The position numbers and the translations under genes are program-made. Shown here piece by piece: positions 27,720 to 36,427 of a DNA stretch of 58,171 nucleotides (positions within the stretch are counted from its first letter, which is position 1; the number at the start of each line of letters is the position of its first letter). Source of the stretch: Candidatus Poribacteria bacterium (GTDB taxonomy: Bacteria; Abyssobacteria; SURF-5); NCBI GenBank assembly GCA_016215705.1, contig JACRIR010000198.1:1-58171 (forward strand), written 5' to 3'. The notes below the pieces were generated by a model. It saw only the letters and a list, made by a program, of their open reading frames with translations, ran no database searches and was not told the origin of the DNA.

Positions 27720-27772
27720 ATCCCTTATTTGGTATTTAAAAGCATTATACCATACCATATATAGGGTGTCAA
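27720..27772 (-). promoter_or_regulatory. nrdR promoter with overlapping NrdR-box-like sites
   Basis: Minus strand: TTGACA (27767-27772), 17-bp spacer, TATAAT (27744-27749), a perfect sigma-70 consensus. The spacer contains ATACCATATATAGGGT (27752-27767), 13 of 16 matches to the NrdR box ACACTATATATAGTGT. A weaker second site (27720-27735, about 9-10 of 16) lies 32 bp away centre to centre, the spacing usual for NrdR box pairs. The promoter is certain by sequence; the operator is inferred. Confidence 0.7.
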
Positions 27773-31436: not shown

Positions 31437-31467
31437 AAAAAGCCCGGAGAGCATGAGCTTTCCGGGC
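31437..31467 (-). terminator. Terminator of the coiled-coil operon
   Basis: On the minus strand GCCCGGAAAGC and GCTCTCCGGGC form an 11-bp stem with one A-C mismatch and a TCAT loop, followed at once by TTTTT. It sits 29 bp after the stop of the downstream coiled-coil gene. Confidence 0.85.
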
Positions 31468-31495
31468 CCTGAAATTACAGATAAGAATTGCCGGG

Positions 31496-32470
31496 TCACA
31501 ATGAAGAAAGCGCCTCTTTTGCGGAGCGTCCTACTTCTTTCTCGGTGTCGCGACTCAGGAAGGCCGAAACCTCCGCCTTCTTGGTCCTGTCAGGTTCGAT
31601 ACGCGCCTTGAGAACTTCCGATTTTGCCTTCGCTTCAGCCGTCTGATCCAGAAATCTCCGCGTCGACGTCATCAGGTAGTTGTTTCGAGCCTCTATCTGC
31701 TTCACGGCCTTCTGCACGTTCGCCAATGACCCTTTCTGGATAAGCAATTCCTTTTTTGTCAGGTCAAGCTCCACTGAAACCCGGTCGAGGCGTTCTTCCT
31801 GAGCCGGCTGGTTTGCAACCTTCTTGTCGATAGTATCGATTTCCGCCGCCAGATCAGTTCGCTTCTTGAGTTCCGCCTTGACCGCAACTATTTCTTCAAG
31901 GGTGCCCACGGCGCGGTAAGAGGCAAGTTGCTTCTCCATCTTGCCATCGTCTTCCAACAATTGAGCAAGCTGCTGGGCAGGTGTCGGACCGGGGGTCAGC
32001 AAATCTTTCACGAGTTCCACTCCCGGTTTTGCGCCCAAAAAACCCACCGCGAGGCAAACCACGGCGACTACCGCAGCGGCGACAGCGCCCTTCAGGCGAG
32101 ACTTCAAACGCGCGCCGCGTTTCGGGGGCGGCGTAAACGCCTCCACTTCCGGGGGCGGAGATAGAGGTCCGCCTTCCGCAGGAGCGCCCATACCCTCTTC
32201 GCCTATATCTCCAAGACCTATCTCTTCGCCTATAGGGGCTTCCGTAATTCCAACGCCTTCACCAAGCCCGCCACCCTCAGCGCCGCCTCCTGAAGAACTG
32301 CTGAACCCTCCATCGCTCATGCCGGTCTCGAGGCTGATAGTGTCCGCATCGAACTCCTCGCCAAGTTCGACGCCACCGGCATCGAGCATATCCTCGCCTT
32401 CACCGGGAATCTCCTGAGAAAAATCTGACTTCTTCCGTTTTCTGAAAATTCCGAATATCTTGTCAAACAT
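31496..32470 (-). CDS. Single-pass membrane coiled-coil protein A
   Basis: 324 residues, not recognised as a known family. It opens MFDKIFGIFRKRKK, an amphipathic basic stretch, then an acidic, Gly/Ser-rich low-complexity region (about residues 20-110), a basic patch (KRGARLKSRLKG), one membrane segment (about 129-150) and a C-terminal heptad-rich helical region from 160 to the end. By the positive-inside rule the N-terminus is cytoplasmic and the coiled coil periplasmic. It is a paralogue of the upstream gene: same opening, same order of parts, and a matching YRAVGTLEEIVAVKAEL against the partner's FKAMGSPTEVKSAQQQL. GGAGG lies 5 bp before the ATG. Confidence 0.75.
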   Translation of the reverse strand: MFDKIFGIFRKRKKSDFSQEIPGEGEDMLDAGGVELGEEFDADTISLETGMSDGGFSSSSGGGAEGGGLGEGVGITEAPIGEEIGLGDIGEEGMGAPAEGGPLSPPPEVEAFTPPPKRGARLKSRLKGAVAAAVVAVVCLAVGFLGAKPGVELVKDLLTPGPTPAQQLAQLLEDDGKMEKQLASYRAVGTLEEIVAVKAELKKRTDLAAEIDTIDKKVANQPAQEERLDRVSVELDLTKKELLIQKGSLANVQKAVKQIEARNNYLMTSTRRFLDQTAEAKAKSEVLKARIEPDRTKKAEVSAFLSRDTEKEVGRSAKEALSSL

Positions 32471-32488
32471 GTCGTCCTCCGCTCCCGG

Positions 32489-33613
32489 CTAGCTTCCGGG
32501 ATTTTGGGGAGCAGTCGTTTCCGGTGTCGGAGTGTTAACGGCAGCGGGTTCAGTCGTAGCCGCCGGAACAATCGGAGCGCTCGCAGCAGGGGGCTCCGCC
32601 GGCGCTGCCGGAGCTATTTCTGAAAGATGATCTGATAGCTTTGCAAGCTCGGCGCGGAAGCTGTCGATGTCCTCCATCTGCAACTCTATCAGCAGCCTCT
32701 TATTGAGTTCGGCGCGGGCCAACTCAAGCTGGAATCGCTCGTATTCTTGATCCGTTCGCTTCGCCAGCGAGGCTACTTCGGTGCGGGCCTGAATTATTCG
32801 AGTCTTGATGTCGCCTATATCGGCGCGCGTTTTCGCTACATCAGACTCGATCCCGCTTATCTTCGCCACCAACTCATTGTATGCGGTTTCCTTCTCTTTG
32901 GCGGCCGCATTAGCTTTCTCAACCTCTTCTACCGCTCCTTGGGAGTCGCGCAACTGAGTAAGCTGCTGCTGGGCGCTCTTTACTTCCGTCGGGCTGCCCA
33001 TTGCCTTGAACTGCGCAACTTCCGACTTGAGCTTGGCGTTCTTCCGTTGTTCCGAATTCACTTGAGTCTGTACATCAAGCTTCGGCTCGTCGCCTCCCGA
33101 CACGCCGACCAGCTTGCCAACGATCGGCCAGAGAAAGAACTGCGCAACACCACCCACTATTATCGCGATTACACCGACCACAGCCAGCGTGAGGACCCTC
33201 TTCACAAATGAAGCCGGCTTTTCCTCGGCAAAGGCTTCAGCGAATGGGGCTGCCTCGCCTTCCCCCTGGAACTCGGCGCCGGGCGCAGCCGCCTCTTCGG
33301 CAAAACCTGTTCCGGTCACGCCCGATATTTCATCGCTAATCGTCCGCTCATCAAAATCGCTGGCGCCCGTCGAGATGTCCTCGCCAAGGCCAAGGTCGCC
33401 CTCTGATACAGGAACCTCGAGACCGGGGCCGGTCTCAGCGCCCGCTCGAGCCGTGCCGACGGCATCAATTGATTCCTCCAGGTCGCCAAAGCTTTCGTCG
33501 AGCCCCAATTCGTCCGCTCCGGGCCCTTTGCCGTCCATAATTGTTGTTTCGCCGCTCTGTTTCACGCGTCTTCTTGTAAAACGCTTGAAGAAGCCGGAAA
33601 TTCTTTCGAACAT
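32489..33613 (-). CDS. Single-pass membrane coiled-coil protein B
   Basis: 374 residues, first gene of the pair. It opens MFERISGFFKRFTRRR, then an acidic Gly-rich region to about residue 130, one membrane segment (about 138-162), a long periplasmic coiled coil (about 180-325) with many Glu/Lys/Ala heptads, and a Pro/Ala/Thr-rich tail. The tail could cross peptidoglycan or be flexible. AAGGAAA lies 8 bp before the ATG, and a perfect sigma-70 promoter lies about 55 bp further upstream. The 18-bp gap to protein A and the shared layout suggest a hetero-oligomer. No homologue could be named. Confidence 0.75.
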   Translation of the reverse strand: MFERISGFFKRFTRRRVKQSGETTIMDGKGPGADELGLDESFGDLEESIDAVGTARAGAETGPGLEVPVSEGDLGLGEDISTGASDFDERTISDEISGVTGTGFAEEAAAPGAEFQGEGEAAPFAEAFAEEKPASFVKRVLTLAVVGVIAIIVGGVAQFFLWPIVGKLVGVSGGDEPKLDVQTQVNSEQRKNAKLKSEVAQFKAMGSPTEVKSAQQQLTQLRDSQGAVEEVEKANAAAKEKETAYNELVAKISGIESDVAKTRADIGDIKTRIIQARTEVASLAKRTDQEYERFQLELARAELNKRLLIELQMEDIDSFRAELAKLSDHLSEIAPAAPAEPPAASAPIVPAATTEPAAVNTPTPETTAPQNPGS

Positions 33614-34058
33614 GTTGTCATTTCCTTTTTCTAACCGAATCGCGGCAAGGGACTTTCTTCCTTAATTTTCAATTATATCTCAAAACCCATTGCTTGTCAA
33701 AGTGTTTCGCAGAATCTCAAGCATCCCTGCTCCTGTGCCTATCAGGACACAAGTCCTTCATTGTTCGGCTCTCAAACCCTCATTCATTATTGTCGCAGAC
33801 CAAATCATCTTTGTCTAAATTCGCAGTTCTTGCCTCTCCCCGGTAAACAATCCCTTGCGGCTCCCCCACCATTCGTCGTGCTGGCGCTGCGTCGGTTGAC
33901 AAATGTAACTGATTGCACAAAGCTCGCTTACAACATGGTTTCGCTCTGGGAAACATCAACTCCGCAGGGATCGCATCATTCGCCTCAACAACGACAAACC
34001 GGAAAAGAGCAAGAAATGCGCCAGTTCCATGCGTCCGTGATCCGCCTCTTCTTTGTGT
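33614..34058. other. Gap upstream of the coiled-coil operon
   Basis: 445 bp between the coiled-coil operon and the trpG stop. It contains the promoter at 33672-33700. Otherwise no gene, repeat or hairpin with a T-run was recognised. Confidence 0.5.
33672..33700 (-). promoter_or_regulatory. Consensus promoter of the coiled-coil operon
   Basis: Minus strand: TTGACA (33695-33700), exactly 17 bp, TATAAT (33672-33677). Transcription start is expected near 33665, about 52 nt before the first ATG. Twelve of twelve consensus bases suggests strong constitutive expression unless a repressor acts. Confidence 0.88.
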
Positions 34059-34634
34059 TCAGCGCGGGTACTTGATTCGCAGGAAATTGTTGATGATTTT
34101 CAGGCCTTCGCGGGTGAGGATGCTCTCGGGATGGAACTGAACGCCATAGATGGGGAACTGCTTGTGCTTGAGGCCCATGATCTCGTCTTCTTTGGTGTAA
34201 GCAGTTATCTCGAGGCAATCGGGTAGGGTTTCTTTCTTGACGATGAGAGAGTGATAGCGCGTTGCCTCAAACGGATTCGGAACATCCGCAAAAAGCTCGT
34301 TCTTGACGTGGTAGATCATCGAGGTCTTGCCGTGCATCAAACGGTCGGCCCTGACGACGTCGCCGCCGAATGCGTACCCCATGCATTGGTGGCCGAGACA
34401 CACGCCGAGAATGGGGATTTTGTGACCAAATGCGCGGATGATGTCGTTCGAGACGCCGGCTTCAAGCGGGGTGCATGGGCCGGGCGAGATGATGACGCGG
34501 TCGGGGTTGAGCGCCGAGATCTCGTCGATGGTTATTTTGTCATTTCGATAAACAACGAAGTCGGGCCGTGACACGCCGACGTATTGGACAAGGTTGTATG
34601 TAAACGAGTCATAGTTATCGAGAATAAGAATCAT
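34059..34634 (-). CDS. trpG: Anthranilate synthase glutamine amidotransferase subunit
   Basis: 191-residue class I glutaminase that hands ammonia to TrpE. Nucleophile cysteine in [15 protein letters not shown], histidine and glutamate in [12 protein letters not shown], and the oxyanion region [12 protein letters not shown]. It is also the length of PabA, and some organisms use one protein for both tryptophan and folate. Pairing with trpE upstream, on the same strand, favours tryptophan. It is separated from trpE by 320 bp of repetitive sequence, so coupling is looser than usual. Confidence 0.92.
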
Positions 34635-34954
34635 TGAATGCCTCTTGTCCGTGAGTCATACAGCTTGTTTCTATCCGCATTGAGTTGTGTTCATTCGGTT
34701 GTTCATGTATTTATTTTGGACCTTAGATTTTGGATTGAGATTCTTCGGTTCGCTCAGAATGATAGTCAGCCACGGAATTTCAGATTTCCATTCGTGTCAT
34801 CCGTCCCATTCGTGCAGTCCTCGCGTTAACTCTTCTGCTTTCCTTTGCGAACTTTGCGCCTTTGCGGTTTAATTCCCCTTTCGCCTCTCTGTCCCTTTTC
34901 GCCTTTTTCCCCCGATTCTTCCCTTTCGCCTTGTTCCTTTCGCCTTGCGCCTAC
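34635..34954. repeat. Composite repeat island between trpE and trpG
   Basis: A gene-free stretch made of several short repeat types: GATTCTTCGGTTCGCTCAGA at 34738, TTCGTG-spaced segments (34787-34826), a TTTGCGCCTTTGCGG run (about 34840-34870) and tandem CTTTCGCCT pieces, including a 26-bp segment (34921-34946) that recurs exactly at 51299-51324. Confidence 0.7.
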
Positions 34955-36427
34955 TTACAGTCCGGCCTCGGCGATTTCGATTGCTTTGACGACTGCGAGC
35001 GCTTTGTTAAGCGTTTCGTAGTATTCACTTGTCGGGTCGGAGTCGGCGACGATGCCTGCTCCGGCTTGTACATAAGCCATGTCGTCCTTGATAATAAGCG
35101 TCCGGATAATAATGCACGTGTCGAGGTTGCCTGAGAAACTGAAGTAGCCCATCGTTCCGCCGTATGGACCGCGCTTAAGCGGCTCGAGTTCCTCAATTAT
35201 CTCCATTGCCCGAATTTTCGGCGCGCCGGTCAGAGTGCCCGCCGGAAAAGTTGCCCGCAAGACATCGAAGCAGTCGTCTTCGTTCCGCAGTGTCCCTCTG
35301 ACGTTGGAAACCAGATGCATGACATGAGAATATCTCTCGACGACCATAAATTCGGTCACGTTCACTGAGCCGAGCTCGGCGACGCGGCCAACGTCGTTGC
35401 GCCCAAGGTCGACTAGCATGATATGCTCCGCGCGCTCTTTCGCATCGGAGAGCAAGTCACGCTCGAGTTCGGCGTCGTCGAACTCCTTCAACGCGCGCGG
35501 GCGCGTACCCGCAATCGGGCGCAAGTCAATTACGTCGTCCTCTACGCGCACCAGTAGCTCGGGAGAAGCGCCTGCAAGTTTGAGCGATCCGAAATTCAGA
35601 TAGAACATGTAGGGAGACGGATTGACGGACCGAAGGGCGCGGTAGATGTCGAACGGCGGCGCAGTCACCTTTGTTGAAAATCGTTGCGACAGCACCACCT
35701 GGAATATGTCACCCGCGCGGATGTATTCCTTCGAGGCCTTCACGATTTCCTCAAACTCTTCCTGTGTGAAATTAGATACGAGCTCGAGTTTAGGCAAAGT
35801 CTTCGGGGGCCGGTATTTCGGATAGGTGAGCGGACTTTGCAGCGCCTCGACCATCGCGTCGATTTCCCGTGTCGCCGCGCGGTACGCGGCTTCCGGATTC
35901 CCCTCGACTTTCGCGTTGCAAACCACCATTATCTTGTGGTTCACATGGTCGAAGATAAGAATCTTGTCGGTGATTACAAAGAAAACATCTGGGAGCCCGA
36001 GATCATCGTAGGTTGCGTCCGGAAGCTTCTCAAAAAATCTCACAGTGTCGTAGCCGACGTATCCGACAGCGCCGCCGAAGAAGCGCGGCATCCCCTCGAC
36101 TGCTACCGGCTTGTACCGGGTCATCAGTTCCTTCAAGCACGAGAGAGGGTCATCGGATTCGAGATTGGTAACGGCGCCATTCTCGGTGATGGTGACCTGC
36201 CTGCCCTTGGCCTGGAATATGATTGAAAGGTTACAGCCGAGAAAGGAATATTGCGCGATGCGGTCGCCGCCCTCGACGCTTTCCAGCAGGAACGAGTAGT
36301 TCCCCTTGTCTATCTTCAGGAATGCCGATACCGGCGTTTCGAGATCGGCAAGCACTTTGCGATAAACCGGAATCAGATTCCCCTCACTGGCCTTTCGCTT
36401 GAACTCCTCAAGTGTGGGTGTGTACAT
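34955..36427 (-). CDS. trpE: Anthranilate synthase component I
   Basis: 490-residue chorismate-using enzyme that makes anthranilate with TrpG. The tryptophan feedback site motif LLES is at about residue 47, and the chorismate-binding core has RPIAGTRPR, DLGRNDVGRVAE, HLVSNVRG, PAGTLTGAPKIRAMEIIEELE and AGAGIVADSDPTSEYYET. Full length for TrpE. It begins 3 bp after the hisI stop, so the two are very likely co-translated. No tryptophan leader peptide or attenuator precedes it. Confidence 0.95.
   Translation of the reverse strand: MYTPTLEEFKRKASEGNLIPVYRKVLADLETPVSAFLKIDKGNYSFLLESVEGGDRIAQYSFLGCNLSIIFQAKGRQVTITENGAVTNLESDDPLSCLKELMTRYKPVAVEGMPRFFGGAVGYVGYDTVRFFEKLPDATYDDLGLPDVFFVITDKILIFDHVNHKIMVVCNAKVEGNPEAAYRAATREIDAMVEALQSPLTYPKYRPPKTLPKLELVSNFTQEEFEEIVKASKEYIRAGDIFQVVLSQRFSTKVTAPPFDIYRALRSVNPSPYMFYLNFGSLKLAGASPELLVRVEDDVIDLRPIAGTRPRALKEFDDAELERDLLSDAKERAEHIMLVDLGRNDVGRVAELGSVNVTEFMVVERYSHVMHLVSNVRGTLRNEDDCFDVLRATFPAGTLTGAPKIRAMEIIEELEPLKRGPYGGTMGYFSFSGNLDTCIIIRTLIIKDDMAYVQAGAGIVADSDPTSEYYETLNKALAVVKAIEIAEAGL

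Follow-up and report, generated by a model that had tools for sequence, protein, structure and literature searches.

The window analysed here, a stretch of 58,171 nucleotides whose source contig is part of a 5.47-Mb draft genome, contains two adjacent genes, A and B, for membrane proteins of a kind that their neighbours do nothing to explain, and the question that this locus raises is what such a pair might be for. The host belongs to the Abyssobacteria, a lineage described from fluids of the deep subsurface (PMC6121073); the NCBI taxonomy assigns the class to Candidatus Hydrogenedentota. Two genomes of the same family, one of them SURF_17 (Candidatus Abyssobacteria bacterium, contig QZKI01000011.1), were available for close comparison, and every other genome used is related at domain level only.

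The A/B operon and its surroundings

A preliminary description of this DNA had reported two adjacent proteins of 374 and 324 residues, encoded as an isolated unit between a perfect sigma-70 promoter and a GC-rich stem followed by a T-run. Both open reading frames were recovered at that place and with those lengths, together with the signals around them:

33613-32489, minus strand: gene A, intact open reading frame, 374 aa, predicted bitopic membrane protein
32470-31496, minus strand: gene B, intact open reading frame, 324 aa, predicted bitopic membrane protein and distant paralogue of A
32474..32480, minus strand: Shine-Dalgarno sequence of gene B, GGAGGAC, read from the sequence, inside the 18-bp gap between A and B
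33700-33672, minus strand: sigma-70 promoter TTGACA-17-TATAAT, 12/12 match, about 60 bp upstream of gene A
31468-31437, minus strand: intrinsic terminator, stem of -22.4 kcal/mol (z -3.35), then a T-run

A survey of relatives, which had been proposed as a check, found the two genes side by side in both, and thus in 3/3 genomes of the family, representing three genera, with a gap of 17-18 bp in the relatives. Identity to the orthologues is 58% and 52% for A, and 57% and 50% for B. The relatives' homologous promoters, in two other genera, occupy the same location, match the consensus at 11/12 and 12/12 positions, always with a 17-bp spacer and with similar flanks, and a terminator-like stem and T stretch also lies 3' of B in both (L012, L013). 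On these features of the DNA, A and B are confirmed as a two-gene operon and would be co-transcribed, and the description of an isolated unit holds in all three genomes. The promoter indicates that transcription is probably strong and of the housekeeping or vegetative type. A DNA pattern search returned 65 perfect sigma-70 sites genome-wide, against 0 with the reversed pattern, so that the promoter is not unique to A/B, and its perfection was rejected as a sign of something special. A second perfect site in the window lies directly upstream of nrdR (27744-27772, minus strand).

Downstream, the order A-B, methyltransferase, recG, rsmD, nrdR is the same in 3/3 genomes. Upstream, the window has trpG and trpE (33700-36427), where both relatives (L012/L013) have genes for a LysE-type transporter and an EF-G-like protein. 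With the gene order kept on one side and changed on the other, the operon behaves as a self-contained unit at the border of a rearrangement, and that border falls at its promoter. None of the neighbours, whether methyltransferase, recG, rsmD, nrdR, trpG or trpE, ties the pair to a process.

Relationship and predicted architecture of A and B

The preliminary description had aligned FKAMGSPTEV of A with YRAVGTLEEIV of B, and had proposed that the proteins be compared as profiles. In hhalign the two profiles align over their full length (A 1-309 with B 1-294, profile positions) with a score of 83.6 (E 2.6e-11), whereas all controls stayed lower: with the heptad phase preserved, 100 shuffles gave at most 31.5, while 100 free shuffles of the columns gave at most 24.8 and the reversed profile gave 25.5. 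Each half carries part of the signal: the cytoplasmic half by itself scores 37.0, with 23.1 as the highest of its shuffles, and for the periplasmic half the corresponding figures are 32.0 and 20.9. Pairwise BLASTP gave no link between A and B (E 0.087), and HMMER with the A profile did not find B at E<=1; A alone matches the B orthologue of genome G002 at E 0.0019. By profile comparison, then, the two genes go back to an ancient tandem duplication, and their products are homologous along their length. Neither profile nor motif searches found a third paralogue in the same genome, where one as divergent as A and B are from each other could escape HMMER.

The two proteins follow a common plan, in which a basic amphipathic tip is followed by an acidic, disordered cytoplasmic tail (about 120-140 residues), one membrane helix and a series of periplasmic helices. 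The single hydrophobic helix, the acidic tail and the basic tip recur in 3/3 orthologues of each protein, in agreement with the order of parts first read from the window. The regions from the membrane onwards are as follows:

33131..33196, minus strand: A transmembrane helix, aa 140-161, by hydropathy in 3/3 orthologues; AF2 helix 136-168
32615..33073, minus strand: A periplasmic helical region, aa 181-333; AF2 helices 181-204, 208-222, 228-313 and 316-333, with breaks at MGSP and DSQG
32492..32605, minus strand: A C-terminal tail, Pro/Ala-rich, aa 337-374, of variable length in the alignment
32030..32092, minus strand: B transmembrane helix, aa 127-147, by hydropathy; AF2 helix 122-144
31502..31981, minus strand: B periplasmic helical region, aa 164-323; AF2 helices 164-187, 191-219, 221-290 and 292-323, with breaks at VGT and NQP

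From the basic tip, and from basic residues that precede the membrane helix, both proteins are predicted to lie in the inner membrane with the N terminus in and the C terminus out. The AF2 models of A and B were built from three-sequence input and, except in the long helices, are of low confidence (pTM 0.22-0.24). In each of them the membrane helix leads into a helix of 24 residues, then a turn of three (MGS for A, VGT for B), and then more helices. The match of FKAMGSPTEV to YRAVGTLEEIV is this conserved post-membrane GS/GT turn, and the resemblance noticed at the outset thus has a counterpart in the models. Heptad periodicity reached significance only in A, for its long helix (p 0.008), whereas B gave p 0.2; these values do not demonstrate a classical coiled coil between A and B, and a coiled coil in B is predicted from the structure model.

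The claim that the proteins belong to no known family also stood. With membership taken as a score above the curated cut-off, or as a full-length match in PHROGs, neither protein matched a family in Pfam (to DivIC, nothing at E<=1), NCBIfam or PHROGs; the weak coiled-coil-type matches that were seen (best E 0.0016 in NCBIfam and 7e-5 in PHROGs) fall far under the cut-offs and all lie within the coiled-coil region. A PDB sequence search with A and B gave no relevant match, and a Foldseek search with their models gave none at E<=0.001. Profile searches with A and B in 383 further genomes yielded no credible homologue. Weak matches came from a few genomes of other families. The three that were read, to a soluble coiled-coil protein (G106) and to coiled-coil LysM proteins (G295, G008), have neither tail nor membrane helix and were rejected as coiled-coil noise; two more (G312 and G091, frames of 986 and 913 aa) are assumed to be the same. 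Paired FD..TIS motifs were likewise sought in 386 genomes, and outside the family only single, chance-like matches were seen. The A/B family is accordingly new and restricted to the Candidatus Abyssobacteria lineage, while bitopic helical scaffold proteins as a general kind are already known.

Cytoplasmic motifs and a proposed function

Conservation, expressed as the fraction of columns invariant across the three orthologues, is concentrated in short segments of the cytoplasmic parts:

33527..33613, minus strand: N-terminal tip of A, aa 1-29, in which KQSGETTIM comes after the basic amphipathic MFERISGFFKRFTRRR; 22/29 columns invariant, against a fraction of 0.30-0.44 for its acidic tail, membrane helix and long periplasmic helices
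33536..33556, minus strand: A motif SGETTIM, aa 20-26, invariant
33320..33361, minus strand: A cytoplasmic motif SDFDERTISDEISG, aa 85-98; 13/16 columns invariant over aa 83-98
32399..32470, minus strand: B N-terminal tip, aa 1-24, MFDKIFGIFRKRKK..SQEIPGE; 17/24 columns invariant
32321..32353, minus strand: B cytoplasmic motif FDADTISLETG, aa 40-50; 11/11 residues invariant

The invariant fraction reaches 0.76 in the A tip, 0.81 in the A motif, 0.71 in the B tip and 0.72 in the B motif, compared with 0.30-0.34 for the acidic tails overall, 0.36 (A) and 0.24 (B) for the membrane helices, and 0.18-0.50 for individual periplasmic helices (0.37 and 0.44 for the longest of A and B, respectively). 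The short inter-helix turns, at 0.50-0.80, are well preserved too. The best-preserved part of these proteins is therefore the set of cytoplasmic linear motifs, rather than the membrane or periplasmic rods, a point that goes beyond the preliminary description. One motif is common to the two paralogues: A has it as DFDERTISDE, B as EFDADTISLE. Across the 5.47-Mb genome, a DNA pattern coding for FD[AE]xT[IL]SxE has just two matches, one in A and one in B, and a pattern coding for GETTIM has one, in A. The residue at position +3 after the motif threonine is Asp in A and Leu in B, a difference that speaks against the link to kinases and FHA proteins considered below.

It is tempting to suggest that A and B form a heteromeric, coiled-coil-based membrane scaffold, whose motif-bearing cytoplasmic tails recruit soluble partners or are regulated by them, with recognition of phosphothreonine by an FHA domain as the leading candidate; we hold this tentatively, at slightly under an even chance. 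Both proteins would sit in the inner membrane with their N termini in the cytoplasm, the basic amphipathic tip resting on the membrane surface ahead of the flexible acidic tail, and the periplasmic helices with their conserved kink would assemble the A/B heteromer. The tip, SGETTIM and FD[AE]xT[IL]SxE would then serve to recruit, or to be regulated by, soluble partners, and phosphorylation of threonines in the tails might be read by an FHA protein. The word 'scaffold', already used for the pair in the preliminary description, seems a reasonable one for proteins that may hetero-oligomerise in this way.

The link to kinases and FHA proteins is a lead, which arose from a motif resemblance noticed post hoc. 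Above the family cut-off the genome encodes at least 14 Ser/Thr kinase domains; its FHA domains number 18. When the motif was loosened to D.DT[IVL]S or D..T[IVL]S[DIL][DE] and sought in about 105,000 aa of open reading frames, it matched only the A/B orthologues and the tail of an FHA-GGDEF protein.

That protein, encoded in the same genome (L053:688-1683, minus strand), has an N-terminal tail, DSDTVSIDPETG, resembling FDADTISLETG of B; L053 was in the sample because it had been chosen as an FHA protein, and the likeness was noticed afterwards. The genome also holds about nine FHA paralogues of some 700-840 aa (L056, L057 with two genes, L059-L064) in which a membrane helix precedes the FHA domain. 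In the members that were read, a VWA domain stands at the N terminus and DUF6982 at the C terminus, and in L056 the VWA, FHA and DUF6982 domains are all assigned by Pfam. This VWA-membrane helix-FHA family is expanded and unexplained.

A bolder version of the proposal, which we regard as improbable in its entirety, would make A/B a phylum-specific signalling scaffold: kinases would phosphorylate the threonines of FD[AE]xT[IL]SxE and SGETTIM in the tails, FHA proteins would dock there, possibly including the roughly nine VWA-membrane helix-FHA proteins of the same membrane, and the state of the periplasm would thereby be coupled to phospho-signalling in the cytoplasm. If the overall reading of A/B given here is right, the family is a new one, born and duplicated within a single uncultured, deep-branching lineage of the subsurface and retained as two strongly promoted neighbours since the genera split; and its motifs would offer concrete, testable handles on inner-membrane organisation or trans-membrane signalling in such bacteria.

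Alternative readings and known systems

The pair might instead serve the envelope in a purely structural way, as a spacer or stress protein, with the periplasmic rods and A's Pro-rich tail touching the cell wall and the acidic tails acting as inert solubility or crowding segments. The Pro/Ala-rich C-terminal tail of A, the low complexity of the acidic tails and the strong constitutive-type promoter would all suit such a role, which we nevertheless think unlikely, for invariant motifs of 7 to 14 residues amid a drifting tail are not expected of inert segments. A divisome- or cell-shape-associated function, as a bitopic coiled-coil pair resembling FtsL/FtsB with large cytoplasmic tails, is suggested by the presence of two small partner genes, each specifying a single membrane helix and an extracytoplasmic coiled coil, and by a very weak similarity of B to the putative cell-division family slr1601 (E 0.43). 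This we consider quite doubtful, given that a canonical DivIC/FtsB match is found elsewhere in the genome (E 1.4e-18), that division genes are absent from the A/B neighbourhood, and that Pfam gave no match. Because the genome thus encodes its own FtsB-like protein, it is also unlikely that A/B replaces a missing FtsB.

The preliminary description had named, among its possibilities, a ring or a secretion-related assembly. Paired bitopic proteins with periplasmic helices do superficially recall PilN/PilO or GspL/GspM, and the organism is reported to be motile (PMC6121073); both points would suit a secretion, pilus or motility machine with A/B as its inner-membrane ring or platform. Sequence and fold searches, however, disclosed no ring-building or secretion domain, the genes close to A/B are housekeeping genes and not those of a machine, and the six well-characterised secretion systems are reported without complete gene sets in SURF_5 and SURF_17 (PMC6121073), so that this part of the description is unsupported and a ring or platform is very unlikely. 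The analysis thus sets what the sequence supports, two membrane proteins that are paralogues and keep conserved motifs on their cytoplasmic side, apart from the ring and the secretion machine, which it does not support.

Several known systems come near to A/B. FtsL and FtsB (DivIC) are, like A and B, two partners with one membrane helix each and an extracytoplasmic helical region, but they are short and their cytoplasmic parts tiny, whereas A and B bear the long tails described above and have no DivIC match. PilN/PilO and GspL/GspM are also adjacent, distantly related bitopic inner-membrane proteins; they possess periplasmic ferredoxin-like domains and are encoded in pilus or type II secretion (T2SS) operons. 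A and B, by contrast, are all-helical in the low-confidence AF2 models, and have neither pilus or T2SS neighbours nor matches to those families. The kinase-regulated tails of the GarA/OdhI type form a further comparison: the phosphorylation motif of GarA is ETTS (PMC5448819), which the invariant GETTIM near the N terminus of A resembles, a likeness to be taken as a lead only. Unlike GarA and OdhI, A and B are membrane proteins with no FHA domain of their own.
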